Source: Pontiellaceae bacterium B12219 (GTDB taxonomy: Bacteria > Verrucomicrobiota > Kiritimatiellia > Kiritimatiellales > Pontiellaceae). From it: DNA of 42,624 bases. The position numbers were made by a program, and so were the translations under genes. The stretch lies in the NCBI GenBank assembly GCA_029432795.1, contig JARNMJ010000036.1, positions 1-42,624 on the forward strand. The letters run 5' to 3'. This document shows positions 5,152-40,636 of this stretch, in pieces. The stretch's first letter is position 1; every line of letters begins with the position of its first letter. Under the pieces are notes generated by a model that was not told the origin of the DNA, did not search any database, and saw only the letters and a program-made list of their open reading frames with translations.

Positions 5152-5170
5152 GGGCGAGGCCCTTTATTTC
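5152..5170. terminator. Short hairpin with T-rich tail between convergent genes
   Basis: GGGC (5152-5155), loop GAG and GCCC (5159-5162) are followed by TTTATTT. It lies where the plus-strand cluster ending at 5073 meets the end of the convergent lacI-type gene. The 4-bp stem is weak, so confidence is low. Confidence 0.3.
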
Positions 5171-6213
5171 CAGTGTTTGAAAATAGATTTCTTCGGCATC
5201 ATAGAGCCGTCGACCCAGCTTCCTTCGATAAGGAGTTCACTGCGGTTTCGGGGGAGTCCAAAGCTTTTTTCATTCATCAGAGCGGTTAACATACGTGTGG
5301 CGGCCCAGCCTATTTCGTAGGGGCGCTGATCAATCCCGGTATCGATGTCGGTATCATGTACCGTCGTGGTTGCCAGGGCGATGTCTTCGGGAATGCGATA
5401 GCCTAGATTATCCAGCATGCGGTGGGTTTCGCTGTTATCGGTCAGAATGGCATCGGGACGGTTCTGTTCGAGCCACTGTTTGAGCTTGATCTGTTGTTCT
5501 GAAATGTTTTCAGGATGCCAGGTGAGTATGGGCAGCTGTTGTGAAAGCGGAAGTTTTTGCTGCGCCCAGAAAAAACCGCTACCGAAGAGGCGCCTTCTCT
5601 CATATTCGCAGGCGCAACCAATCCGCTGATAGCCGAGTTGCTGAATGCGGTCAAAGGCCATCATGGTGTTTTCATGTTGCGAACTGCTCACAAAATGGGC
5701 GCGGGGTTCGGGGGTGGCGCGGCCGAAGCGGACGACGGCATAGTCGGACCAATCGAAATTCTCCAGCACCGCAGGTATATTTCCGACGGGAGGGAGCAGG
5801 ATGCCCTGAATATTCCGGGTTCGCAGAATGGTTTTAAGTCGAAGCAAGGGAATCTCTGAAAGGTTGAATTCAACTACGCGATAGCCCATCCGCCGGGCAT
5901 TGTCAGATGCGCCCTGCCAATAGAGTTCAAACTCCTGAAACTGTCGCAGTTTTTCAGGAGGCGTCCAGGTATTCAGCCAGGCCAGTTCCGCCTGAACCGG
6001 ATTGTTTCCTCCGGTTTTACTGTATCGGGAGAGGGATGCCAGAAGAGGGTCGGGGACATAGCCCATTTCATCGGCTTTCGCCAGAATCCGGGCCTTCAGC
6101 TCCGGGGAAACGTTGGCCATATTGCGCAGGGCTCTTGAGACGGTAACGTGGGAAATTCGCAGTTCACTGGCAATATCTCGCTGGGAGATTCGGTTGAATC
6201 GTTCATTCTTCAT
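5164..6213 (-). CDS. LacI-family transcriptional regulator
   Basis: This 349-residue regulator has an N-terminal helix-turn-helix (residues about 9-31: ISQRDIASELRISHVTVSRALRN), the LacI hinge region around residues 45-60, and a periplasmic-binding-protein-like effector domain to the C-terminus (GILLPP, RFGR, AFDRIQQLGYQRIGC, PDAILTDN, and the typical DQRPYEIG near the end). Family members are usually cytoplasmic repressors released by a sugar. The ATG at 6213 has no strong Shine-Dalgarno sequence, but the HTH begins immediately, so the start is secure. It diverges from the GH95 gene, and a cre-like palindrome lies between them. Regulation of GH95 and its downstream genes, plus autoregulation, is the simplest inference. 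Confidence 0.92.
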   Translation of the reverse strand: MKNERFNRISQRDIASELRISHVTVSRALRNMANVSPELKARILAKADEMGYVPDPLLASLSRYSKTGGNNPVQAELAWLNTWTPPEKLRQFQEFELYWQGASDNARRMGYRVVEFNLSEIPLLRLKTILRTRNIQGILLPPVGNIPAVLENFDWSDYAVVRFGRATPEPRAHFVSSSQHENTMMAFDRIQQLGYQRIGCACEYERRRLFGSGFFWAQQKLPLSQQLPILTWHPENISEQQIKLKQWLEQNRPDAILTDNSETHRMLDNLGYRIPEDIALATTTVHDTDIDTGIDQRPYEIGWAATRMLTALMNEKSFGLPRNRSELLIEGSWVDGSMMPKKSIFKHWK

Positions 6214-25188: not shown

Positions 25189-25866
25189 TTATTCATTCCG
25201 GTATACATCGTGGGGCAGGATACCGGCCTTATAGGATTTTGAAATGGCGGCTGCGGCATTTTCCACCTGCAGTTTTTCATAGATACGGCGAATATAGGTG
25301 GCCACGGAGCCGAAACCGATATTCAGCTGGTCGGCGATCTCTTTTTTTACCAAGCCATCGGCCAGCAGGGAGAGAATTTCGAGTTCCCGTTCGGATAGGG
25401 GTTTCTCGAGTTTGACCTTGCTGGATTTGGCGGTTACCGCATTGATGATGTATTGTGCAACGCCCTGGTCCAGCAGGGTGTTGCCTTCCATCACGCTGCG
25501 GATGCCTTCTTTGATTTGGGTAACGGAAGAGGACTTCAGCAGGTAACCGGAGATGCCCAATGAGATGGCGTGAAGAACATCCGCCTCTTTGTTGGACTGT
25601 GTGAGGGCAATGATTCTGGTGTCCGGTGTGTACTGTTTTATCCACGGAACAGCATCGAGCCCGCTCATGCCGGGCAGATTCAGATCCAGCAGAATCAGGT
25701 CGGGCTGATTGGAGGGAGAGGGGTTCTGAAGGTTGCGGAGCCCGACTTCGGCCGCTCCAAACATATCAATCAGTTCCATGTCGGGTTCCGGCTCGATGGC
25801 CAGCGAAATAATATCGCGGTAAACGGGACTGTCTTCGATAATGATTATTTTAGTGGGTGTGCTCAT
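25189..25866 (-). CDS. NarL/LuxR-type response regulator
   Basis: This is a 225-residue response regulator. The receiver domain (about 5-120) has the acidic pair Glu11-Asp12, phosphoacceptor Asp61 in LILLDLNLPG, and the conserved Thr and Lys of IALTQS and YLLKSS. The C-terminal LuxR-type HTH (about 158-215) contains LSERELEILSLLADG and the recognition helix region SVATYIRRIYEKL. Its start overlaps the end of the kinase gene by 17 bp, so the two are translationally coupled and surely form one two-component system. Its targets are likely the divergent plus-strand genes beginning at 28065, where an inverted repeat at 27909 is a candidate site. Confidence 0.95.
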   Translation of the reverse strand: MSTPTKIIIIEDSPVYRDIISLAIEPEPDMELIDMFGAAEVGLRNLQNPSPSNQPDLILLDLNLPGMSGLDAVPWIKQYTPDTRIIALTQSNKEADVLHAISLGISGYLLKSSSVTQIKEGIRSVMEGNTLLDQGVAQYIINAVTAKSSKVKLEKPLSERELEILSLLADGLVKKEIADQLNIGFGSVATYIRRIYEKLQVENAAAAISKSYKAGILPHDVYRNE

Positions 25867-27850
25867 GATTTTTCCGCTTCAGGTGAAAGATTAACGGGCG
25901 TAAACGAAAGTTTAACTCAATTTTTGTTCCGCCTTCATCGGGGGTAAGAACCCGCACATGCGCGTGTAAAAAACGGGCTCTTCGTTTCAGGGAGGGGGGA
26001 GTTTTATTTTTACTGGAATCGGGTAAGCCCCGGCCATTGTCTGCAATGGATAAGTAAACCCTGTGCGGTGTGATCTTCAGTCTGGTGGCCAGTCGGGTCG
26101 CTCCGGAGTGGCGGCTGATATTGATCAGGCACTCTTTATAGAACAGAAAAAGGTCTATACGTGTTTTTTGCGGAATCAGCGGGAGCAGGTCTTCTCCTTC
26201 AATAACGATCTGATGATGCTGCCGGGCCACGATTCGTTCGGCGGCCCGCTCCATATCAGCTTTGAGTTCTGCAAATAGATCATTGGAGTTTTTGAGATCG
26301 GTAATATTGCGAACGGCGATTCCTGAACGTTTAACCACATCCAGAATTCGGTTCAGATAATTCTGGAGGTTCTCCGGATGCTCTTTTGCTTCTTCGGCCA
26401 GATTGGTCAACAGTCCGATACCGTGCAGATTGGCGCCGATCTCGTCGTGCAGATCGGCTGCAATTCGATCTTTCAGCTGCTTCTGCATGTGTCGATGCAA
26501 TAACCAAACCAGTAGGCAGATAAGGGCCAGTGCTACGGCCGCCCCGCGCGTGAGGAGAAGATTTGTTTTCTGGCGTTCATGACGTTTGTTTAATTCAGCA
26601 AGGATCAGGGGGCGGAAGCTTTCCAGATCATGCCGCCGGGAAAGCTGCGTCATCCAGACTTTTAACGGCAGGATCTCTCCGTAATAGTTACAGCCATCTG
26701 TAATCCGAAGGAGCGCTTCATCGGGATAGGTAATGGTATTGCTCACCGAGACAGGAGCATGAAGGGCTGTATTGCGTCCTGCTGATAAAACTTCAATTTC
26801 GGAAAAGGCAATCTGGGGCGGAGCGGGGGGGATTGTGACAACGGGAATATGGTCAAGAATATTGATTGCGATGTGGCGGCACAGGGTGGCCGGAAAACGC
26901 CGCATAATGATCGGCCCGTTATCATAGATGGTTTCCTGGCGATATTCACATAAAAGAGTTTCATCTGAAAAATCGGGTTCCATTGCACCCGTAACCTGAA
27001 CATGGCGCGGTACGGCCCAGCTGGAAAAGTTTCCCATGGGAACCGCGTATGAAAGCGCGGCGGAATGAAAGTTGATCTGGTTGATTGTATAGGGCGCATT
27101 AAGGTCAATGGTCAGACGGGGAGTGAGATTCGTTTCGAGGATATGCAGCAGCAAAGCCTTGCTTTCCTTGCCGTAAGCGGCATCCATCGTATAGGGCGTG
27201 AATCCGTCCACTGCAAACTGCATACCAAGTGAGGTGGCCGGCTTCGGGGCATCTTCCGGAGTTATAACGGGTTTGTTCAGCGCCACATTTTCCATGCCGC
27301 TGAATACCATGATTTCAGAAAGCTGCAGCAAATACTGATTCCCCGAAGGGCGCGAAGTCAACTCCGAGGTTTCTATGCGGATCCATGAAGCGGTGGTGGG
27401 CGGGAAGGAGAGGGATAAGGGTGCTGTGCGGGGGGAGCTGTTCTGATCCGCCGATACGGTTGCAACGGTGTTGGTGTTTTGGCCGGTTCCCGCCAGCACA
27501 CGAAAGGCTCGGGGAAAACCTTCTGCCCGGAGGGTGGAATGCGATTCACGAAACAGCATCGGCACCAGAACGACGGTGTCAACAGTGCATTCCTTTTCCA
27601 ACTCAATCTGGACCCACTCCATTTTACCGGACGTTTTATGTACGTTGGACCGATAGCCTAAAGAGCCCACTCCTCTTCGAAAGGTGAGGCGGGCGAGTTG
27701 TTCGAGTTCTGCATCAACTTCAGCCTGTTGCTGCTTCAGTTCTTTCAGACTTAACTTTGTAAGTGGGATGGCCTGATGAAGTCCATGGGCCGGAGCAGTA
27801 AAAAGTCCGGCAAGGAGAAGGGGCAGCATCTGGAGAAACAGTGATTTCAT
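25850..27850 (-). CDS. Sensor histidine kinase with periplasmic discoidin-like domains
   Basis: This is a 666-residue NarX/DesK-class kinase. A signal peptide or first membrane helix (1-23) precedes a large extracytoplasmic part with two F5/8C-like (discoidin) beta-sandwiches (about 60-195, ending LQLSEIMVFSG, and about 200-365, ending IAFSEIEVLSAG). One membrane helix follows (about 430-450). The HisKA_3 segment LKDRIAADLHDEIG places the phosphoacceptor at His468; the ATPase domain shows an N-box NISRHS and ADNGRG. Discoidin modules often bind sugars, so direct sensing of the glycan or its fragments is plausible. I chose the ATG at 27850 for the signal peptide; an in-frame ATG at 27871 adds seven residues. 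Confidence 0.92.
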   Translation of the reverse strand: MKSLFLQMLPLLLAGLFTAPAHGLHQAIPLTKLSLKELKQQQAEVDAELEQLARLTFRRGVGSLGYRSNVHKTSGKMEWVQIELEKECTVDTVVLVPMLFRESHSTLRAEGFPRAFRVLAGTGQNTNTVATVSADQNSSPRTAPLSLSFPPTTASWIRIETSELTSRPSGNQYLLQLSEIMVFSGMENVALNKPVITPEDAPKPATSLGMQFAVDGFTPYTMDAAYGKESKALLLHILETNLTPRLTIDLNAPYTINQINFHSAALSYAVPMGNFSSWAVPRHVQVTGAMEPDFSDETLLCEYRQETIYDNGPIIMRRFPATLCRHIAINILDHIPVVTIPPAPPQIAFSEIEVLSAGRNTALHAPVSVSNTITYPDEALLRITDGCNYYGEILPLKVWMTQLSRRHDLESFRPLILAELNKRHERQKTNLLLTRGAAVALALICLLVWLLHRHMQKQLKDRIAADLHDEIGANLHGIGLLTNLAEEAKEHPENLQNYLNRILDVVKRSGIAVRNITDLKNSNDLFAELKADMERAAERIVARQHHQIVIEGEDLLPLIPQKTRIDLFLFYKECLINISRHSGATRLATRLKITPHRVYLSIADNGRGLPDSSKNKTPPSLKRRARFLHAHVRVLTPDEGGTKIELNFRLRPLIFHLKRKNHEHTH

Positions 27851-27908
27851 ATTGTCCCAACTGGATAGCATGAAATGGGCGAAGCACCAAGTCTGTGCCT
27901 TTTACATT

Positions 27909-27932
27909 TCTGTCTACTGATTGGTAGACAGA
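27909..27932. promoter_or_regulatory. Candidate response-regulator binding site
   Basis: TCTGTCTAC and GTAGACAGA form perfect 9-bp arms around TGATTG. The site lies between the divergent kinase gene (start 27850) and the binding-protein gene (start 28065), where a NarL-type regulator would be expected to act. No T-run follows, and it is outside both genes, so a dimeric operator is more likely than a terminator. Confidence 0.5.
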
Positions 27933-28064
27933 CGAATTCCTGAAAGCAACTTACCTTAGGTTCTCTATAAGTAGAAAAAGGGACACGTATGGATGTGTAG
28001 TATCCATTCAGGAAGACGTAATCGTGCTGATATGAAAGGCATGCTTAAACAAAAGGATGAGATA

Positions 28065-30935
28065 ATGAAAAAAAAGAAAATCATAGGAATGCTCCTGTTG
28101 ACGGCACTAGGAGCCGCTCAGGCCGCTCTGGTAGGTGAGTGGACGTTCGAGGGCGGGCTTGCGACGGACAGCAGCGGCAACGGTTATGACGGAACGATTG
28201 TGGGCAGTCTTTCTCCTGTTGCCGGAGTGGAAGCCGGTACGGATGCCTTCGCGTTTAATGATGTTGCCAACTATGTGAGTATTCCATCCGGCGTGTTCAG
28301 TACGGTTGGTGACGAGATTTCGATTGCGCTGTGGACTTTCGGCGATCCGGAAATCCTCGGTGACGGTTCGACCGGAAACAGTGCCTTCGGCAGCAACAGC
28401 CGCAATATGCTGCATTCGCATACACCATGGAATAACGGTAATTTGTATTGGGATGCCGGCAATTCCCGCCAGAACTACAACATTGCTGATGCGTCAAAGT
28501 ATGAAGGCAAGTGGAACCACATGGTCTTTACGATGGATTCCGTTTCCGGAGATAAGAAAGTTTACATTAACGGTGTGGAAGACGCCGGCTGGAGCGGACT
28601 GAGTTTATCCCCGATTTCCGGGATTACCTCGTTTTTCATCGGCAGGGCTGCACATAGTGGAATTGCGTATCACGGTAAACTGGATGAGTTCCAGATCTAC
28701 GACCATGAACTGGATGCGGCGGCAGTCTCTAACCTGTATGCAAGTTATACCGTCGATGCGTATGCAACGGCCATTATTGAAACGTCTGAAACGAGCGGTG
28801 CGGCTCCGTTAGACGTTGCATTTGACGGATCAAGCAGCACCGCCTCCGGTGATATCATCAGCTACAACTGGAATTTCGGTGATGGGAATACCGCCTCCGG
28901 TGCGGTGGTCACGAATACCTATAATGCAGGAAGCTATACGTCCGAACTGGTGATTGCTACCTCAGAAGGATTGTACAGCACCTCTACGGTTGAAATTGCT
29001 GTGTTTAATTATGTCGGTGTGGATCTGGTGGCGTCAGTTGAAGGCTCGGCTGATAGCAATCCTCCAGATTTTTATACCGATGATTTGGGACAGACCGCAG
29101 TGGCGAGCATTTCGGGCACCGGCACTCCGGGGAATCCCGGAGTTCATGCCGTTCCTGAGAGACTGTTCGACGGCACCATCGGTAATACCGATGAGAGCAT
29201 CGGCGGTGACGGTGAGGTGCGCTGGAATTCTTCCTGTACGGTCACCATTGAGTTTGACCTGTCAGAGAATACGCTCGGTTACGACATCACTGAAATTTCA
29301 AGCATTGCCGGATGGGCTACGCTCGGCGGTGGACGGGCCAATCAGGGCTACGGTATTCGGGTGACGTATGCGGATGATTCTGAGGCCATCCTGACCGACT
29401 CCGAGCATTGGGCACCCAACAGTCCCGCTGAATACTGGACCAAGGTTACGCTTGTTGAAACGAATGGGCTGCCGATGGCGCGAGGCGTGAAATCGGTCAC
29501 GTTTTTTGATTTTAACGATGCGAATGCCAGCGGAGTCGTGATTGGTCGTGAATTTGATATTCTGGGCACACCCACCACCGAGGACTATGTATTCGCCGGT
29601 ATTGCGGCATCGCCTCAAGGCGGGCCTCCGGCACTTGACGTTGCATTTGACGGATCCTCCAGTTACGCCAGCTCCGAAATTGTTTCCTATGTCTGGAACT
29701 TCGGCGATGGAAACAGTGCCGCTGGAGTTCTGGCCACTAACACCTATACCGCCTCCGGGGATTATGCTGCGCAGCTGATTGTTACGGATGAAAATGGTCT
29801 GATGGCGACCAATACGGTTGATATCGAAGTTTTCGATGTGGTTGAGGCTGTGGCAACAGCCACCCCGCTCAGCGGAAACCTTCCGTTGGAAGTGGTCTTC
29901 GAGGCCACCAACAGTACATCGAGCGGTACCATTATTTCATATGAATGGGACTTTGGTGACGGCAATACAGATAGCGGTGCGGTGGTAACACACACCTATA
30001 ATCTTTCCGGATCGTTTACTGCCACGCTCACAGTTACCGATTCAAATGGTCTGGAGGATACCGCGACGGTTGAGCTTGCGGTTACCAAAGCTGTGGTTGC
30101 TGATTATATTCAGTATTCAGAACAGATTCTGTCGAACTCAATTCCGGTGGTCAGCAGCACGGACCTGGCTCAGACGGCTTATCTGAGCAGTGCCGGTGCC
30201 GGCGGAAATGAAGCCGCGGAGCATGCGCAACTGTTTGACGGTGAAATCGGGAACCAAAGTGGCAGCACGGGCGATCCCAGTAAAGTACGGTTGACCGGTG
30301 ATAACACCATTACCGTTACCTTCGATACGTCGGTGAATACCTACGGGTATGATATCGATGTGATCGAAACCTTTGCCGGCTGGACGCCCACGACCTACGA
30401 CGGGGTTTCCGCAACGAATAATCTCAGCCGCTCGAATCAGGGCTATGAACTGATCATCGGTTTTGCGGATGGGTCCTTCGGCACCTTCGCCGGTCCGGCC
30501 CACTGGGAACCGAATGGTGATGCTGTGGTGACGAATGCAGTGGGAACGGAAATTAACGATACCTACTGGACCAAAGTTGGTTTTTCCGGAGTGGGCGGCA
30601 ACCCGATGCTACGCAATGTGGAGTCGATCACGTTTGATATTTCGAATAACGCCCGGGCCGGTGGTGTTGTGATCTACCGCGAATTTGATGTCTTCGGGGA
30701 TCCTTCAACCGGATTCTATCCGAGCGCGATCGTACTGGATTCCTTTGATGGCGGTGAATCGCTCTCCTGGGCAACGGACAGTCCCGCCTATGTCTACAGT
30801 GTGCAGACCAATGCGAATTTGGTGTACCCGAACTGGGGAACCTGGACCAATGTCATCGGCACGCCGCCGTCAACAACGGTGGAGATGCCTCCGGCAACTG
30901 AAGACCAGCAGTTTATCCGTGTGATTGTTGAGTAG
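28065..30935 (+). CDS. Secreted LamG/PKD protein with two copies of an unassigned domain
   Basis: This 956-residue extracellular protein has no recognisable catalytic domain. After the signal peptide (1-20, ending AQA) come a LamG/concanavalin-type domain (about 21-230, starting GEWTFEGG), PKD 1 (231-315), unassigned domain copy 1 (324-502), PKD 2 (509-590), PKD 3 (594-675) and unassigned domain copy 2 (683-881). The last ~75 residues resemble the short C-terminal beta segment of other large secreted proteins here. PKD domains carry the NFGDGN or DFGDGN signature. The start at 28065 follows AAAGGATG; the frame is open upstream to 27993. It opens the third cluster, next to the kinase pair, and probably binds glycan or links enzymes to it. 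Confidence 0.85.
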   Translation: MKKKKIIGMLLLTALGAAQAALVGEWTFEGGLATDSSGNGYDGTIVGSLSPVAGVEAGTDAFAFNDVANYVSIPSGVFSTVGDEISIALWTFGDPEILGDGSTGNSAFGSNSRNMLHSHTPWNNGNLYWDAGNSRQNYNIADASKYEGKWNHMVFTMDSVSGDKKVYINGVEDAGWSGLSLSPISGITSFFIGRAAHSGIAYHGKLDEFQIYDHELDAAAVSNLYASYTVDAYATAIIETSETSGAAPLDVAFDGSSSTASGDIISYNWNFGDGNTASGAVVTNTYNAGSYTSELVIATSEGLYSTSTVEIAVFNYVGVDLVASVEGSADSNPPDFYTDDLGQTAVASISGTGTPGNPGVHAVPERLFDGTIGNTDESIGGDGEVRWNSSCTVTIEFDLSENTLGYDITEISSIAGWATLGGGRANQGYGIRVTYADDSEAILTDSEHWAPNSPAEYWTKVTLVETNGLPMARGVKSVTFFDFNDANASGVVIGREFDILGTPTTEDYVFAGIAASPQGGPPALDVAFDGSSSYASSEIVSYVWNFGDGNSAAGVLATNTYTASGDYAAQLIVTDENGLMATNTVDIEVFDVVEAVATATPLSGNLPLEVVFEATNSTSSGTIISYEWDFGDGNTDSGAVVTHTYNLSGSFTATLTVTDSNGLEDTATVELAVTKAVVADYIQYSEQILSNSIPVVSSTDLAQTAYLSSAGAGGNEAAEHAQLFDGEIGNQSGSTGDPSKVRLTGDNTITVTFDTSVNTYGYDIDVIETFAGWTPTTYDGVSATNNLSRSNQGYELIIGFADGSFGTFAGPAHWEPNGDAVVTNAVGTEINDTYWTKVGFSGVGGNPMLRNVESITFDISNNARAGGVVIYREFDVFGDPSTGFYPSAIVLDSFDGGESLSWATDSPAYVYSVQTNANLVYPNWGTWTNVIGTPPSTTVEMPPATEDQQFIRVIVE
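29034..29573 (+). repeat. Unassigned ~180-residue domain, copy 1
   Basis: Encodes residues about 324-502 of the LamG/PKD protein. Landmarks shared with the other three copies: DDLGQT, LFDGTIGN, GEVRW, TIEFDLSENTLGYDI, NQGYGI, HWAPNSPAEYWTKV and GVVIGREFDILG. Confidence 0.7.
30111..30707 (+). repeat. Unassigned ~180-residue domain, copy 2
   Basis: Encodes residues about 683-881 of the same protein. Landmarks: TDLAQTAYL, LFDGEIGN, KVRLTGDNTITVTFD, YGYDID, RSNQGYELIIGF, HWEPN, YWTKVGF and GVVIYREFDVFG. It has two insertions relative to the other copies: about 8 residues before RSNQGYE, and a dozen or so between HWEPN and YWTKV. Confidence 0.7.
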
Positions 30936-30955
30936 TTCATCTCTGCTCCGAGCTT

Positions 30956-30989
30956 CCCTCCCTGCCGGTTTGCTGCTGTGCAGGGAGGG
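30956..30989 (+). terminator. Strong hairpin after the LamG/PKD gene
   Basis: A perfect 10-bp G+C-rich stem (CCCTCCCTGC at 30956-30965, GCAGGGAGGG at 30980-30989) with a 14-nt loop starts 20 bp after the stop codon. The T-run is weak (ATTTGGATTT further on), so it may be a terminator or a 3' stabilising hairpin. Confidence 0.6.
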
Positions 30990-31049
30990 CGCTCATTTGG
31001 ATTTGTAAGAACAGGGCTCTGATAGAGAGTCGTAATTAAAGGAGAAAAA

Positions 31050-31688
31050 ATGAAAAAAAGTACAAGCATAGGGGCGGCTCTTCTGTTGGCTGCCGGAGTG
31101 GCTCAGGCGGCAACGATTAGTTGGGGAAGTGCGACGACCGTGACGGATGAAACCGATGTTTCAACCTTGGGAACGTTGGAATATGCCGAAAGCTGGGGCG
31201 CGGCGGTGAGTGATGTTAACGGTGTTGATTTTGTTTTGGCCAGCAATGGCAATGTAACGCGCTCGGATGGGGCAACGGACAGAACACATAACCGAACCGA
31301 TAATGTGCCGAGTCAGGTTGCCCAGAGTGGTGCATATTACGATCTGCTTCGCAGTGGGTGGTATTCTGCTGATGCCGGAAAAAGCATCACACTGAACAAT
31401 TTGACAGAGGATCAGGAATATCTGGTTCAGATCTGGTCCTCCGATGACCGCTATGGTATCAACCAGGAACAAGTGGTCGATGGTGTAACGTTGGAAACCA
31501 GTCTGGGCCAGTATGTCATTGGAACCTTCACGGCAGATGCGACAACGCAGGATCTGGCATTCAGTGGAACAGACAGCGGCATCATGACTGCGGTTCAGGT
31601 ACGGGCAATTCCGGAACCGGCAACGATTGGGCTGATCGGAGCCTTCGGCGGAGGACTTCTCTTCGTTCGCCGCAGATTCATGGTGTAA
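31050..31688 (+). CDS. PEP-CTERM protein of unknown function
   Basis: This is a 212-residue exported protein: signal peptide 1-21 (ending AQA), a beta-rich body (SAGKSITLNNLTEDQEYLVQ, YVIGTFTADA), and a classic PEP-CTERM tail, with IPEPATIG followed by a short hydrophobic helix and RRRF at the very end. Such tails are recognised and cleaved by an exosortase, which is not encoded in the window. The body resembles generic PEP-CTERM beta-sandwich proteins and no enzyme motif is visible. The start follows a strong AAAGGAG (31038-31044). It is flanked by hairpins on both sides, suggesting it can be a separate, well-expressed transcript, perhaps a surface or matrix protein used during growth on the glycan. 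Confidence 0.85.
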   Translation: MKKSTSIGAALLLAAGVAQAATISWGSATTVTDETDVSTLGTLEYAESWGAAVSDVNGVDFVLASNGNVTRSDGATDRTHNRTDNVPSQVAQSGAYYDLLRSGWYSADAGKSITLNNLTEDQEYLVQIWSSDDRYGINQEQVVDGVTLETSLGQYVIGTFTADATTQDLAFSGTDSGIMTAVQVRAIPEPATIGLIGAFGGGLLFVRRRFMV

Positions 31689-31778: not shown

Positions 31779-34700
31779 ATGAAAATATTGAAAAGTACAG
31801 TTCTTTTAGTTTACGGCCTTTGCTCTTTTTCGTGGGGTATGGATTTTTATGTGGCCACAACGGGCAGCGATACAAACAGCGGTTCCTATTCCGAACCGTT
31901 CCAGACCTTGGAAAAAGCGCAGCAGGCCGTTCGGGCGGCGTTGCCCACGGCGACCGAAGAAATTAAAGTCTGGGTGCGCGGGGGTACCTACTATCTGGGA
32001 ACACCACTCGAATTCGGAATCGCTGATTCGGGGTCAGCCTCCGTGCCGGTGACCTGGTCCGGGTATTCAAATGAAACGGCGGTGATCAGCGGCGCCATAC
32101 CGCTGTCTCCCAGTTGGAGCACCTATTCCGGTGAGATCCAGGTGGCCACGATCGGGAGCGGGCTGACCTTTGACATGCTGTTTGTTGATGACGATCTTCA
32201 GGTGCTGGCGCGTTACCCGGATTATGACCCGGATACGAAGATTCTCAACGGTTATGCCGCCGATGCCATCAGCAGTGCAAAGGTGAACAGCTGGGCCAAT
32301 CCGGCGGGCGGTTTCTACCGAGGCCTTCATGGTAATGAATGGGGGGGCAATTCCTATCGTATCACCGGTAAAAACGGCAGCTCGCTGAATTTGGATTGGG
32401 TGGGTGATAACAACCGTGGGTCCGGTGTACACAGCACTTACCGTATGGTGGAGAATATTTTTGAGGAGTTGGATGCCGAAGGTGAATGGTTCTATGACGA
32501 GCCGGCCGGAAAACTCTATTTCTATCCTCCGACGGGGCTGGATCCAAATACCGCAACATTTGAAGCCGCTTCGCTGGAGGAGCTGATTCGCGTTGTGGGA
32601 ACAGCGGAGACCAAGGTGAAGCATCTGACTTTTTCCAATTTCACCTTCACGCACACACATCGTACACTTTTTACCGGGATCTATGAGCCGATGAACCGCA
32701 GCGACTGGCGGCTGGTTCGTTCCGGTGCCGTTTATATTGAGGATGCCGAACATATCACCGTCTCCAACTCGCTCTTCGATCGTATTGGCGGGAACGGGGT
32801 GTTCTTCAGCGACTACAACCGCGACCATCTGATCACAGACAATGAGTTTCTCGACAACGGGGCAACCTGCGTGAATGTCTGCGGAAGCAAGGATGCGCTT
32901 TGGAATACAAATGAATGGGATGACTATCCAACCGAGATCTCTGAAATTGTCAACACCGCAGGGCCCCGGACCGATGACTACCCCAAAGATATTACGATCA
33001 GCTATAACCACATGGTTAATATGGGGCGGTTCGAAAAGCAGACGTGCGGCGTGAACCTTTTCATCGCCGAGGAGATTGTCATCAGCCACAACACCATCCA
33101 CCGCAGCCCGCGTGCGGGAATTAATATTTGTGACGGATCCTGGGGCGGGCACATTATTGAGTTTAATGATGTCTTCGACTGCATTCGGGAAACGCACGAT
33201 CATGGGCCTTTTAACTCATGGGGGCGCGACCGCTTTTATTCCATAGGCGGCTATAACCACAGTGGTTCAGACGGTACGATCAAACGGCCCTACGCTTTTC
33301 TGGATGCATGGAAGACCACCCACATCCGCAATAACCGTTTCCATTATGAAGAGCCTACTCAGTTCGGTATTGATCTCGACGATGGGTCCAGTGATTACGA
33401 AATCTACAACAATCTGATTCTGAACACATCGGTCAAACTGCGCGAAGGGTTCAGTCGCAAGGTGTATAATAATATTATCATCAACCGGGGGCTCGATCTG
33501 CATGTCTGGTTTGCTGAATGCAGGGATGTCATTTCAAATAATATTGTGGTCGGTTCCTCGGCCTATAATCCGATCAGTGTCGGAGGCTCCGACGAAGAGG
33601 CCTATACGGACTATAATCTGTTTTTTAACGGGGATAATGAGGTGGATGTGGATTCCTTTAACTGGTTGGCCAGCGATGAAAATTCCGTTATTGCCAATCC
33701 TCTCTTCCGGAATCCTCAGTCGAATGATTATACCGTGGCTACCAATTCACCGGCATTGGCGCTGGGTTTTGTAAACTTTCCGATGGACCAGTTCGGCAAG
33801 CCCGGTGCGCCGGAGCCCGATCCGATCAGCTATGATGGCGGCATACCGCCGGGATCGGATGCAGAACCGTTCATGGGAGCTTCCATCTCCAGTATTTACG
33901 GGGATGGGATTCAGTCCGTTCTGGGGGCGCCGGACCATGATGGCGTCTTTTTCGAATCCTTACCTTATGGAAGTTATGCGCAAACGGAGGGTTTCGAGCA
34001 GTATGACCTGATTCGGGAAATGAACGGGACGGCGGTTACGACCAAACAGAGTTTCTGGCTGCTCTATAATTCCATCCCGTCGGGCTCGACGATCGACTGC
34101 ACCCTTATCCGGAATCAGCATGAAGTATCGTTTTCCTTTGAAAAGACCACCGGCTCTGAACAGCTGAATCAGACCGCCGGTTTGGTCTATACCGGTTCCT
34201 GGACCACGCAGCAGAATGTCAGCTGTTTTAACAGTGATGTCCAGATCACAACCCGTGCCGGGGATCAGTTTGAACTCACCTTTTACGGAACGGACGTTTC
34301 TTTTGAATCCATCAAAGGCCCCGATATGGGCCAGGTGAATGTATATGTGGATGGGGTGCTGGATCAGACGGTGAGTCTGTATCATGCAACGGAACTTTAT
34401 CAGGAGACCGTTTATAGCAAAAGTGGTCTGACCAAGGGGCTGCACACGTTGCGGGTGGTCAATGCCGGGGCGGCGGGCATGAATGTCGATTCGCTTCATA
34501 CGGGCATTATTCCAACGCTGAACTGGCAGGTTTCCACGAGTAAGCTGGCCGCAGAAACACCGCCATCGTTCAGCACAGATGATCTGGGGCAAACCCATGT
34601 GTTGAGTACATCGGCGACCGGTGGTGAATCCGTGGCAACGCGCCACGGGGATCTGTTCAACGGCGAGATTGGCGATTCCGGCAGCGGAACATCCGATCCG

Positions 34701-35891
34701 GGCGCTGTCCGCATGGATAATAACAATACCATCACGCTGACACTGGATACGGAATCACATCCATTCGGTTTTGATATCACCGGTATAGATACGATTTTCG
34801 GGTGGAATACGGATGGGAACGGGCGTTCGAATCAGGGCTATGAGTTGATTCTCTCCTTTGTTGATGGAACCGTTACCTCGCTGGCCGGTCCGGAACACTG
34901 GGAACCCAATTCGCCGGCTTCCTATTGGACCAAAGTTTCATTCACGGCTTCGGCCGCAAACGGCATTATGGCTTCGGGAGTCAGGGCGATCACCTTTGAT
35001 ATTACCCACAACGCCAATGCAAACGGGGTTCTCATTGCCCGCGAGTTCGATGTTTTCGGGGCTCCAACTCCTGATCCCGATGTACTGCCGCCGAATATTT
35101 CAACCAACATCACGGTGCTTACGGACAAATCAGGCAGTGCTCCGACCGTCAGTAGCAATGACCTTGCGGAAACTTACTATGCATTCAGTTCGGGTTCCGG
35201 CGGCAACGATGCCGATTCCGAACACGATCAGCTTTTTAACGGACAGGCCGGCAATGAAGATGGCGATACGAATGATAGCGGCGAAGTCCGTTTGACCAGC
35301 GGGAACTCGGTGACCGTTAATTTCGATATTTCAGAAAACACGTTGGGATATGATATTACAGGCATCGTCACCTGTTTCGGCTGGGGAACGGAAGGAAACG
35401 GCCGTTCCAATCAGGGCTATGAAATTATTCTCGGCTATGTCGGGGGCGGTTCCCAAACGCTTGCGGGGCCGGACCATTGGGAACCGAACAGTCCCGCTTC
35501 ATACTGGACAACCGTTTCCTTCGCTGATGCCTTTGGAGGACCTCTGGCTTCCGGCGTCAGCTCGGTTACCTTTAACATTTCCGAAAATGCCAATGCCGGC
35601 GGAGTTGTGATCGCCCGCGAGTTTGACATCTTTGGAGCGCCCACCGTATTGAACGACAGGTATGAGCCTGTATTTGATCCGGACATGGTGAGGGTTTCGA
35701 ATGGAATTTTTCAGGCGGCGTTTTCCGGGTATATCGGTGCGGACTATCTCGTGGAATGCACGGATAGTCTGATCAGTTCCAATCCCTGGGAAGTTATTAC
35801 AAATCTCCAGCCATTGGAAATCTCTCCATTCATTGTTTCGGTTCCATCAACGAATGACGCCGGGTTCTATCGGGTTCGTTGGTTGCCGTAA
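31779..35891 (+). CDS. GH141-like beta-helix enzyme with PDZ-like domain and two unassigned domains
   Basis: This is a 1370-residue secreted protein. The signal peptide (1-20) is followed by DFYVATTGSDTNSG, the usual opening of right-handed beta-helix enzymes of the GH141/GH120 type, and a helix of repeated coils to about residue 680. HDHGPFNSWGRDRFY (His473-Asp474-His475) is a strong GH141-type block. GH141 includes alpha-L-fucosidase and xylanase activities. Next comes a PDZ-like region (about 684-791: GVFFESLPYGSYAQ, LIREMNGTAV), a galactose-binding-like sandwich (about 801-909), unassigned domain copies 3 and 4 (about 915-1097 and 1111-1288) and a short C-terminal beta segment. Its start lies 29 bp after a terminator, so it likely has its own promoter. 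Confidence 0.8.
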   Translation: MKILKSTVLLVYGLCSFSWGMDFYVATTGSDTNSGSYSEPFQTLEKAQQAVRAALPTATEEIKVWVRGGTYYLGTPLEFGIADSGSASVPVTWSGYSNETAVISGAIPLSPSWSTYSGEIQVATIGSGLTFDMLFVDDDLQVLARYPDYDPDTKILNGYAADAISSAKVNSWANPAGGFYRGLHGNEWGGNSYRITGKNGSSLNLDWVGDNNRGSGVHSTYRMVENIFEELDAEGEWFYDEPAGKLYFYPPTGLDPNTATFEAASLEELIRVVGTAETKVKHLTFSNFTFTHTHRTLFTGIYEPMNRSDWRLVRSGAVYIEDAEHITVSNSLFDRIGGNGVFFSDYNRDHLITDNEFLDNGATCVNVCGSKDALWNTNEWDDYPTEISEIVNTAGPRTDDYPKDITISYNHMVNMGRFEKQTCGVNLFIAEEIVISHNTIHRSPRAGINICDGSWGGHIIEFNDVFDCIRETHDHGPFNSWGRDRFYSIGGYNHSGSDGTIKRPYAFLDAWKTTHIRNNRFHYEEPTQFGIDLDDGSSDYEIYNNLILNTSVKLREGFSRKVYNNIIINRGLDLHVWFAECRDVISNNIVVGSSAYNPISVGGSDEEAYTDYNLFFNGDNEVDVDSFNWLASDENSVIANPLFRNPQSNDYTVATNSPALALGFVNFPMDQFGKPGAPEPDPISYDGGIPPGSDAEPFMGASISSIYGDGIQSVLGAPDHDGVFFESLPYGSYAQTEGFEQYDLIREMNGTAVTTKQSFWLLYNSIPSGSTIDCTLIRNQHEVSFSFEKTTGSEQLNQTAGLVYTGSWTTQQNVSCFNSDVQITTRAGDQFELTFYGTDVSFESIKGPDMGQVNVYVDGVLDQTVSLYHATELYQETVYSKSGLTKGLHTLRVVNAGAAGMNVDSLHTGIIPTLNWQVSTSKLAAETPPSFSTDDLGQTHVLSTSATGGESVATRHGDLFNGEIGDSGSGTSDPGAVRMDNNNTITLTLDTESHPFGFDITGIDTIFGWNTDGNGRSNQGYELILSFVDGTVTSLAGPEHWEPNSPASYWTKVSFTASAANGIMASGVRAITFDITHNANANGVLIAREFDVFGAPTPDPDVLPPNISTNITVLTDKSGSAPTVSSNDLAETYYAFSSGSGGNDADSEHDQLFNGQAGNEDGDTNDSGEVRLTSGNSVTVNFDISENTLGYDITGIVTCFGWGTEGNGRSNQGYEIILGYVGGGSQTLAGPDHWEPNSPASYWTTVSFADAFGGPLASGVSSVTFNISENANAGGVVIAREFDIFGAPTVLNDRYEPVFDPDMVRVSNGIFQAAFSGYIGADYLVECTDSLISSNPWEVITNLQPLEISPFIVSVPSTNDAGFYRVRWLP
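34521..35070 (+). repeat. Unassigned ~180-residue domain, copy 3
   Basis: Encodes residues about 915-1097 of the GH141-like protein. Landmarks: TDDLGQTHVL, LFNGEIGD, AVRMDNNNTITLTLD, FGFDITGID, RSNQGYELIL, HWEPNSPASYWTKVSF and GVLIAREFDVFG. Confidence 0.7.
35110..35643 (+). repeat. Unassigned ~180-residue domain, copy 4
   Basis: Encodes residues about 1111-1288 of the GH141-like protein. Landmarks: SNDLAETYYAF, LFNGQAGN, EVRLTSGNSVTVNFD, LGYDITGIV, RSNQGYEIILGY, HWEPNSPASYWTTVSF and GVVIAREFDIFG. Confidence 0.7.
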
Positions 35892-37597: not shown

Positions 37598-37614
37598 AGG
37601 TATAAGGGAACGTG

Positions 37615-39084
37615 ATGATGAATTCTTTGTTTAGGTGGGTTGCTGGTTTTGTGGTCTTTTCGGGGGCGGCTTTTGCAGCCCCGGATCGGCCGAATATTGT
37701 TTTTGTGCTGTGCGATGACCTGGGCTACGGCGATGTGCAGTGCCTGAATCCGGAGCGTGGAAAAATTCCGACGCCGAACGTCGATAAACTGGCGGGCGAG
37801 GGAATGGTTTTCACGGATGCGCATTCCGGGTCCTCGGTTTGTTCGCCCACGCGCTATGGTTTACTGACAGGACGCTACAGTTGGCGCACCCGGTTGCAGC
37901 ACGGTGTTACGAAGGGGTATGCACCCAACCTGATTGCACCGGACCGTCCAACCCTTGCGAGCTTCCTGCAGGACCAGGGATATCATACCGGCATCATTGG
38001 AAAATGGCATCTCGATTTTCAATATCTGGATCCGGACACCGGCGAGCTGCTGAAACGTCCGAAAAAAAATACACTGCCGCCGGTGGGAACGAAAATCCCC
38101 GACGGACCGTTGACGCGCGGCTTTGATTATTATTACGGCTTCCATCATGCCCGCGATATGAAGGCCGTCATCAAAAACGATACCGTGATTGAGCACGACG
38201 ATGAAATCAACATGCTGCCGCGGATGACGCAGGAGGCGGTTGAATTCATCGAATCGCATGCGGCGGGAACAAGTGGGCTGCCCTTTTTTCTGTATGTTCC
38301 GCTGGGTTCGCCCCATACCCCAATTGTGCCCACGCCGGAATGGCAGGGAAAAAGCGGCATTAATGCGTATGCGGATTTTGTGATGCAGACCGATGCCGCA
38401 TTCGGGGTCATTCTCGATGCGCTCGACCGGAGCGGATTGAGCGAAAATACCATCGTGATTTTCAGCAGCGATAACGGCTGTTCAAAAGCCGCCAACTTTA
38501 AAGAGCTGGAAGCGGCCGGGCACTATGCAAGCGCCGACCTGCGCGGCTCAAAATCCGATATCTGGGATGGCGGACATCGGGTTCCGTTCATCGTCCGCTG
38601 GCCGGGCAGGGTACAGGGCGGATCAACCAGCGATCAACTGATCTGTCTGATCGACTGCTTTGCAACGCTCGCGGATCTGACCGGAGCACCGTTGCCGGAA
38701 AACGGAGCAGAGGACAGTGTCAGCTTCATGCCGGCACTCAATGGAGAGGAAATTGTTTCCACTCGGAACGGTGTGATTCATCATTCGATCAGCGGACATT
38801 TTGCGTATCGTTCGGGTCCATGGAAACTGTGCCTGGCGAAAGGATCCGGCGGCTGGACGGCACCCAAAGAAAATGCCGTGCCCGACGGAGCTCCGCCGGC
38901 TCAGCTTTATAATCTGGAAACCGATCCGGCTGAAACAAACAACCTGTACGAATCGCACCCGGAAGTGGTGGAACGCCTGCTTAAACAGCTGGAAGCCGAT
39001 GTGACAGCCGGACGCAGTACAGCGGGTGCCGATTCACAGAATGACGTCGAAACGATTGTGCTCTGGAAAAGTGCAGGAAATTAA
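37615..39084 (+). CDS. Secreted sulfatase
   Basis: This 489-residue formylglycine sulfatase has a signal peptide (about 1-21). The maturation motif is CSPTRYGLLTGR with Cys76. CDDLGYGDVQC gives the first metal ligands, GKWHLDF the catalytic Lys/His, and SSDNG the second metal pair, followed by GSKSDIWDGGHRVPF, as in arylsulfatase A-like enzymes. A GTG three bases upstream is in frame, but the ATG at 37615 (or the next ATG at 37618) gives the better leader. It is followed after 1 bp by another sulfatase, so the two are almost certainly cotranscribed and may remove sulfates from different positions. Confidence 0.93.
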   Translation: MMNSLFRWVAGFVVFSGAAFAAPDRPNIVFVLCDDLGYGDVQCLNPERGKIPTPNVDKLAGEGMVFTDAHSGSSVCSPTRYGLLTGRYSWRTRLQHGVTKGYAPNLIAPDRPTLASFLQDQGYHTGIIGKWHLDFQYLDPDTGELLKRPKKNTLPPVGTKIPDGPLTRGFDYYYGFHHARDMKAVIKNDTVIEHDDEINMLPRMTQEAVEFIESHAAGTSGLPFFLYVPLGSPHTPIVPTPEWQGKSGINAYADFVMQTDAAFGVILDALDRSGLSENTIVIFSSDNGCSKAANFKELEAAGHYASADLRGSKSDIWDGGHRVPFIVRWPGRVQGGSTSDQLICLIDCFATLADLTGAPLPENGAEDSVSFMPALNGEEIVSTRNGVIHHSISGHFAYRSGPWKLCLAKGSGGWTAPKENAVPDGAPPAQLYNLETDPAETNNLYESHPEVVERLLKQLEADVTAGRSTAGADSQNDVETIVLWKSAGN

Positions 39085-39085
39085 C

Positions 39086-40636
39086 ATGATGCAAAAAATA
39101 AATATTGCGGTTACCTGTTTAGCCCTGACGGCCATAACGCCTTTTGTTCGGGCTGACGGTTTGGCGGATCGACCGAATATTATTTTTCTGATGACCGATG
39201 ACCAGCGCTGGGACAATATGGGTTGCTACGGACGCCCCGAATTCAAGACGCCGAATATCGATGCCCTGGCTGAGCAGGGCGTTGTTTTCGATCAGGCGTT
39301 TAATACGGTCGCGATCTGCATGCCGAGCCGGGTGACGATGATGACCGGGCGCCATTATTCCAGTCACCGCGTAGGCTTTGTTGCGCCGAACGACTACACC
39401 TTGTCGCGGCCCGATTTTGCCAAAGGCTATCCGGCGCTGCTCAAGAAAGCCGGCTACCGTACGGGCTTTATCGGTAAGGTGGGGTTTACGGTATCCGAGA
39501 AAGCGCAGCGGCCGTGGGCGGGTGTGCCGTTCAATTATAAAGAGAATATGGGCGATGTGTTTGATTTCTTTGCCGGAGCCGAGACGGTGGAGGATAAGGC
39601 GCTGGAGGTGTGGCCGGAAGAGGATGCCGCACTGCAGGCCATTTATTCGAATAAAAAGAAGGGCGAGAACCGTACGTTGAGAACCGGGAAAGCGATGCTG
39701 CGTTTTCTCGATACCCAACCTGAAGATCAGCCGTTCTGTCTTTCGGTCAGTTTCTATGCGGTCAAGCATGACAGCAACTCCCATATGTTCATGCCGCACT
39801 ATGAGCTGTTCAAAAATCAGGAGTTCTCCATTCCGGAAAACTGGGTGGAAGGCGATAACGAAGCGCTTCCGCAGGTGGTGAAGGAGCATGCCCGGGGTGT
39901 TCGGTTGCACAAACAGCGAACCTCAACTACGGCGCTCTACCAGCGGCAGGTGCGCCGTTTTGCAACGCAGGGCTATACCGTCGATCAGCAGGTCGGAATG
40001 CTGTTGGAAAAACTGGCGGAAATGGGGTGCCTGGACAATACGGTTATTATCTACACCAGCGACAACGGACGTTATCAGGGGTCGCACGGCCTTTTCGACA
40101 AGTGTATTCTCTACGAAGAGGCGGTCCGAGCTCCGCTGATTGTTTTTGATGGCCGGGTGGCCGGAGCTGGGAAAGGCCGGCGGGAAGATGCGCTGATTTC
40201 CTCGGTCGATATGGCGCCGACGATACTTTCGCTGGCGGGGCTGGACGCGCCGGAGATCATGCAGGGCCGGGATTTCAGCGGAGTTCTGAATCAGACGCAG
40301 GATCTATCCGAATGGCGCGATGCGGTACTGTTGGAAAACCTCTTCATTGTGGATCTCTTCAACTCAAAATCCAAACCGAATGTGATGGAGATTAACCAGA
40401 ACCTGATTGATCGCAATGCCTCCTACCGCAGTCGCGGCGTCCGCACCGACCGGTTTAAGTATTTCATCTATTACGAGCATAACCCGCCGGTTGAGGAGTT
40501 GTATGATCTGGATAAAGATCCGCTGGAGCAGAACAACCTGGTGAACAATCCCGAATTTGTCCAAACACTGGAAAAACTGCGGAAACGGACAGAGGAATTG
40601 TATTTAAATGCGGTTCAGGAAAACGAGGAAATATAA
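39086..40636 (+). CDS. Secreted sulfatase
   Basis: This is a 516-residue formylglycine sulfatase with a signal peptide (1-23, ending VRA). The maturation motif is CMPSRVTMMTGR with Cys78. MTDDQRWDNMGCYG carries the first metal ligands, and TSDNGRYQGSHGLFDK the second metal pair and catalytic Lys. This resembles the choline/iduronate-sulfatase-like branch more than the gene just upstream. The start at 39086 is one base after the previous stop, with CAGGAA at 39074-39079; the frame is open 60 bases further upstream inside the preceding gene. It is the last intact gene of the cluster; the following 142 bp hold no clear terminator, only a degenerate palindrome near 40731. Confidence 0.93.
   Translation: MMQKINIAVTCLALTAITPFVRADGLADRPNIIFLMTDDQRWDNMGCYGRPEFKTPNIDALAEQGVVFDQAFNTVAICMPSRVTMMTGRHYSSHRVGFVAPNDYTLSRPDFAKGYPALLKKAGYRTGFIGKVGFTVSEKAQRPWAGVPFNYKENMGDVFDFFAGAETVEDKALEVWPEEDAALQAIYSNKKKGENRTLRTGKAMLRFLDTQPEDQPFCLSVSFYAVKHDSNSHMFMPHYELFKNQEFSIPENWVEGDNEALPQVVKEHARGVRLHKQRTSTTALYQRQVRRFATQGYTVDQQVGMLLEKLAEMGCLDNTVIIYTSDNGRYQGSHGLFDKCILYEEAVRAPLIVFDGRVAGAGKGRREDALISSVDMAPTILSLAGLDAPEIMQGRDFSGVLNQTQDLSEWRDAVLLENLFIVDLFNSKSKPNVMEINQNLIDRNASYRSRGVRTDRFKYFIYYEHNPPVEELYDLDKDPLEQNNLVNNPEFVQTLEKLRKRTEELYLNAVQENEEI

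Follow-up and report, generated by a model that had tools for sequence, protein, structure and literature searches.

A tandem-discoidin histidine kinase, its partner regulator and a predicted operator in a sulfated-glycan locus of a Pontiellaceae bacterium

Introduction

PVC bacteria possess very large sets of sulfatases and glycoside hydrolases, and no paper was found on the switching of individual loci. This question is raised by a stretch of 42,624 nucleotides from Pontiellaceae bacterium B12219 (contig JARNMJ010000036.1; hereafter the window), in which a sensor kinase gene is surrounded by genes for four sulfatases, GH95, three GH43, GH2, DUF2961 and alginate-lyase-like proteins. The sulfatases and the GH95, GH43 and GH2 genes bear out an earlier note, made from the sequence alone, which had placed the kinase within a sulfated-glycan locus, and the locus content points to a sulfated glycan that contains fucose, galactose or arabinose. 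Which signal would such a kinase read, and which genes would it control?

The best-known precedent is found in Bacteroides, where hybrid two-component systems (HTCS) form locus-linked, paralog-expanded kinases that sense glycans outside the cytoplasm and activate the adjacent utilization locus (PMC3404733). For Pontiella agarivorans, the available part of a published account mentions PF07730/PF02518 kinases and PF00072 regulators near GH/sulfatase clusters and suggests substrate sensing, and this part contains no analysis of sensor domain, operator or family (PMC10880615). A literature search for discoidin/CBM32 kinases or PVC operators, with most subscription papers outside its coverage, returned nothing on the family described here, and no description of its sensor, operator or recognition code was found in the literature searched.

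Architecture of the kinase and its partner regulator

The minus-strand ORF at 25850-27871 (673 aa) encodes a one-pass histidine kinase. Since M8 is the conserved or invariant start in the family, the gene probably begins at this residue (Table 1), in agreement with the upper coordinate of 27850 in the earlier note. Residues 8-29 form a signal peptide-like segment, followed by a short helix, and a single transmembrane (TM) segment is located at about residues 437-463, which places residues ~30-440 outside the cytoplasm. From the N to the C terminus, the protein consists of two beta-sandwiches, a conserved linker, a juxtamembrane helix, the TM segment and a HisKA_3/HATPase_c core. In Pfam, HisKA_3 is matched above the cut-off at residues 468-523 and HATPase_c weakly; the H-box (DLHDEIG at 473), N-box (579), G1 box (DNGRGLP at 611) and G2 box (GGT at 647) are present and the nearest fold is that of DesK (Z 16), so that by cut-off, motifs and fold the core has the HisKA_3 phosphoacceptor and HATPase_c domain of the DesK/NarX-NarL class. 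Gene calls were mechanical.

Table 1. Positions of the kinase, its domains and the neighbouring features in the window
Feature	Position	Strand	Remarks
Partner response regulator, REC + GerE	25189..25866	-	225 aa; DesR/NarL type; overlaps kinase gene by 17 bp
Sensor histidine kinase	25850..27850	-	666 aa counted from M8; ORF reaches 27871
Kinase core, HisKA_3 + HATPase_c, DesK-like	25853..26473	-	
Conserved juxtamembrane helix + TM	26474..26665	-	residues 403-466; helix continuous with DHp helix in model
Discoidin-like domain 2	26774..27289	-	residues about 195-366; model, tandem matches, domain-1 profile match
Discoidin/CBM32-like domain 1	27290..27682	-	residues about 64-194 of 673-aa ORF; Pfam, model, Foldseek, VIA-align
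Predicted operator	27910..27931	.	CTGTCTACTGATTGGTAGACAG; perfect 8-bp arms, 9 bp with flanking T/A
Predicted -10 of divergent promoter	27952..27957	+	TACCTT; exactly 20 bp after operator
Divergent gene (predicted target), LamG + PKD exported protein	28065..30935	+	ORF from 27993; AAAGGATGA RBS before start at 28065
PEP-CTERM protein, second gene of divergent set	31050..31688	+	
Beta-helix protein, downstream, co-oriented	31779..35891	+	
Two sulfatases, downstream, co-oriented	37612..40636	+	

The sensor had been described in the earlier note as two extracytoplasmic F5/8C beta-sandwiches in place of PAS, Cache or Reg_prop domains. None of these three is found by Pfam, and PF22633 (F5_F8_type_C_2) is matched at residues 78-166 (29 bits; cut-off 27.8), with PF00754 scoring slightly below its cut-off; across 81 family members, PF00754 is matched in 74 and PF22633 in 64. 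An AlphaFold model of the sensor alone, a check along the lines proposed in the note, has a discoidin fold at a mean pLDDT of 90 and a pTM of 0.86. Foldseek matches to this model at E<=0.001 are mostly discoidin or galactose-binding-like folds, including the tandem CBM32 of ZmpB (7jnd, E 2e-8), neuropilin b1b2, fucolectin and SUN. In VIA-align, domain 1 matches CBM32 chains with Z about 11, the best single-domain matches being carbohydrate-binding CBM32 modules, and factor V C1C2 spans both domains (213 residues, rmsd 5.0). Domain 2 is without a Pfam match and a sequence search of each domain against the PDB returned weak matches only; the profile of domain 2 matches that of domain 1 (hhalign E 3.8e-5), so that domain 1 belongs to the F5/8C superfamily by Pfam and fold, and domain 2 by fold and profile. 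The structural prediction thereby confirms the modelled sensor as two tandem F5/8C (CBM32-type) domains. Outside these domains, the linker at residues 367-398 (26678-26773 of the window), GRNTALHAPVSV...ITDG, echoes the domain-2 start motif ENVALNKPV...VDG, as if a third discoidin domain had been truncated, and the segment that follows (D392, G398, W406) ranks with the best-conserved parts of the protein beyond the kinase core.

The partner regulator, whose recognition-helix residues are A189, T190 and Y191, is nearest to DesR. A REC-GerE gene is located directly downstream of the kinase in 90 of 93 testable family cases, often with a 4-bp overlap, which adds the adjacent REC-GerE partner of the DesK/NarX-NarL class. 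In NCBIfam, no equivalog cut-off was reached by the kinase-regulator pair.

A family of locus-linked paralogs

The source genome (4.75 Mb) carries 14 further copies of the kinase at 38-55% identity and one distant copy, and family kinases make up 16 of its 19 HisKA_3 matches. A scan of GTDB genomes identified 386 relatives, the best 78 loci of which belong to Pontiellaceae, Akkermansiaceae, Opitutia, Puniceicoccaceae and Rhodopirellula-type planctomycetes, and a match at E<=1e-60 is present in at least 33 of 383 Verrucomicrobiota genomes, a lower bound because three candidates were scored per genome. The kinase is one of a large family, little described so far, that occurs across Verrucomicrobiota and Planctomycetes. 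A distant homolog (L016 / L031, G000:C230:5953-8037; about 24-26% identity) has its own REC-GerE partner and no recognisable operator, and is possibly an outgroup. Another relative, L099 (Gammaproteobacteria bacterium UBA4475), looks near-identical around the kinase to L098 (Opitutia UBA977) and is therefore probably a contaminant contig in a gammaproteobacterial MAG.

A divergent upstream neighbour accompanies 73 of 92 family kinases, encoding PKD/LamG surface proteins, TonB receptors, sulfatases, GH29 fucosidases and others. Within the source genome, the order of LamG/PKD protein, PEP-CTERM protein and enzymes is repeated, and a sulfatase lies within 10 kb of 10 of the 15 kinases, a moderate enrichment (P 2e-4). 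Many loci of this genome have a leader pair of an exported LamG/PKD protein and a short PEP-CTERM protein opposite the kinase, among them the window (27993-31688), L017, L019, L020 and L023. Two kinase-regulator pairs occur in each of the loci L063 (5316-7280, 12528-14501), L071 (7076-9244, 9968-11986) and L075, and those of L063 come with two different operators.

Palindrome and promoter across the family

Motif discovery in 95 kinase upstream regions yielded a palindrome of 20-24 bp (LLR 334, versus 94-102 in shuffles), and a 22-bp palindrome with the consensus CYATCCYNYGTTTANRGGATRG lies upstream of most family kinases. In the own-genome set, the first motifs of 12-16 bp corresponded to the RBS of the divergent gene and were set aside as the common motif. 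The outer arms of the palindrome are constant, while inner arm positions are variable yet complementary, with 45 complementary cases against 23.7 expected for pair 10/19 and 44 against 19.5 for pair 11/18. Since G-T mismatches are depleted in the arms to about the same degree as A-C mismatches, protein-bound DNA is favoured and an RNA hairpin was rejected. PWM sites are 29x denser upstream of kinases than in the rest of these loci. A clear palindrome is missing from the searched upstream region of about one quarter of the kinases, several of which carry one elsewhere, and a genome-wide search with the strict consensus YATCC-TTT-GGATR was uninformative.

On the divergent side, TANNNT follows 19-20 bp past the palindrome in 40 of 56 loci, against a background of 1.5 hits per offset. 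With a -10 element at this distance, the centre of the palindrome lies about 42-43 bp ahead of the start site and its arms cover the -35 region, a placement known for class II activators, for instance at the lux box. A scan for consensus sigma-70 promoters found none, as is expected where a -35 element is lacking. On the kinase side, 15 of 66 loci, the window not among them, have a -10-like element at a distance of 20 bp from the palindrome, and some family members are therefore likely to be autoregulated.

Upstream of the window kinase, the best-scoring place is TCTGTCTAC-TGATTG-GTAGACAGA at 27909-27932, in the 22-bp register of the family. The match of this palindrome to the family PWM is poor (log-odds -0.5); the palindrome was recognised by its symmetry, its register, the Y191/G6 match and the -10 spacing, and was added to the counts by hand. 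Its CTGTC outer arms suit Tyr191 of the regulator, as in L033 and the planctomycete L109. No further copies are present in the window, and in a search of the genome only this site has fewer than two mismatches, looser counts not rising above the reversed control. A single copy gives no support for control of the operons at 1-25 kb, and the predicted operator speaks for control only of the genes that run rightward from 28065.

Regulator-operator covariation and locus-specific regulons

Among 59 non-identical regulator-operator pairs, the strongest covariation links half-site positions 6, 7 and 11 with regulator residues 191, 190 and 189, respectively. These residues are within the GerE recognition helix, and we take them to be homologous to the base-contacting residues of NarL. 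D189 accompanies G at position 11 in 16/16 cases, compared with 0/43 for other residues (P 9e-15 in a Fisher test that ignores shared ancestry); Y/F191 accompanies the loss of A6 (7/7 vs 1/52), and T190 accompanies T7 (35/37 vs 5/22). His191 pairs with A6, Tyr or Phe191 with G6 or T6, and Asp, Glu or Tyr190 mostly with C7. On the kinase tree, joint changes were counted in 3/3, 5/5 and about 4/8 independent pairs for the three residue positions, and the opposite almost never; each sign test falls short of 0.05 because independent changes are too few. Some columns of the REC domain also score high, so shared ancestry contributes to the signal. Which operator goes with which regulator can be told from sequence.

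Outside the kinase upstream regions, 43 extra sites near a gene start, none of which was used for motif discovery, precede other operons of the same locus and share its half-site, with 33 TANNNT hits at 19-20 bp. The half-sites of these extra sites differ from the operator of their own locus at 4.5 positions, compared with 7.6 (sd 0.38) when loci are permuted. The sensor also tracks the locus: given the kinase core, sensor similarity predicts common flanking genes (partial Mantel r -0.21, P 2e-4), a correlation that comes mostly from close pairs (r -0.09 at sensor distance >=0.35), and given the sensor, kinase-core similarity does not predict them (P 0.14). L033 and the window, at a sensor distance of 0.41 and a core distance of 0.55, have the divergent gene and one further gene in common.

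Proposed switch and alternative explanations

Taken as a whole, the arrangement is probably a two-component switch of a glycan locus. Two tandem CBM32-like domains would read a signal outside the cytoplasm, which is most likely a glycan fragment from the substrate of the locus itself and may be bound directly by the sensor, and pass it through the conserved juxtamembrane helix to the DesK-type kinase core, which would phosphorylate the REC-GerE protein encoded just downstream. A dimer of this regulator would then bind the 22-bp palindrome overlapping the -35 region and activate the divergent promoter, which would drive the LamG/PKD and PEP-CTERM genes and probably further enzyme genes. If each paralog reads its own half-site, as is proposed here, many parallel systems in one cell would be insulated from each other.

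The step that most invites another explanation is the ligand. The same circuit could operate with discoidin domains that bind a protein partner, lipid or cell-wall material, or that serve as a structural stalk: discoidin folds bind proteins and lipids too, neuropilin and factor V/VIII are among the matches, and the conserved divergent LamG/PKD gene beside many paralogs encodes a possible partner. This is regarded as unlikely, though it is the most plausible of the alternatives, given the locus context, the link of sensor sequence to the gene content of the locus, and the carbohydrate-binding nature of the best single-domain matches. The palindrome could also be bound by another regulator or act only in repression or autoregulation, as a site over the -35 region could repress and the kinase-side -10 elements would fit autoregulation. 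We consider this improbable, since the half-site bases covary with the recognition helix of the adjacent regulator and the fixed 19-20 bp spacing of the -10, on the target side and at the extra sites, is the spacing expected of an activator. DesK and LiaS have no large external sensor and perceive their signals within the membrane, a difference that speaks against an ordinary envelope-stress kinase of this type placed in a glycan locus by chance; the likeness of the core to DesK and of the regulator to DesR would accord with such a kinase, and the repeated association with glycan genes and the many paralogs make it very improbable.

Beyond the window, we somewhat favour the broader view that PVC polysaccharide loci are run by tandem-discoidin kinases whose regulators and operators have co-diversified, such that the regulon and, in part, the substrate class could be predicted from residues 189-191 and the sensor. 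Seaweed-sugar clusters tend to come with a sensor, a partner regulator and a DNA switch of their own.

Comparison with known systems

The earlier note had viewed the kinase as a non-Bacteroidetes counterpart to the HTCS. In function this comparison is backed by paralog expansion, operator logic and sensor-locus tracking, and both kinase families are locus-linked, paralog-expanded and equipped with an extracytoplasmic sensor; control of the adjacent glycan locus, a feature of the HTCS, is predicted for the window kinase from computational operator and promoter evidence. In structure the comparison fails: a Bacteroides HTCS is one polypeptide with an AraC-type HTH, whereas the window kinase ends after HATPase, carries a discoidin sensor on a HisKA_3 core and leaves REC-GerE, unfused and not of AraC type, to a separate gene. 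The best reading is therefore a PVC functional counterpart of the Bacteroidetes HTCS that has the construction of a classical DesK/NarL-type pair and whose regulons are insulated and limited to one locus each. The HisKA_3 core and REC-GerE partner are common to the DesK-DesR and NarX-NarL pairs, from which the window system differs in sensor input, genomic role and operator. Similarly, fold and tandem arrangement of the sensor resemble CBM32 or F5/8C proteins (ZmpB tandem, lectinolysin, fucolectin), which are enzyme appendages or lectins, whereas here, at about 10-20% identity, the domains are the input of a kinase.

The results define a kinase family together with its partner, a predicted operator and the geometry of the promoter, all of which can be tested by single bases and residues. 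Operators that differ between loci and are read by closely related regulators represent a natural data set on the insulation of duplicated two-component systems, and would permit the sequence-based prediction of regulons and hence of co-induced enzymes for seaweed glycans.

A second candidate regulator, of the LacI family (5164-6213, minus strand), is encoded between the GH43 and GH95 genes on the left side of the window, and may serve that part of the locus.
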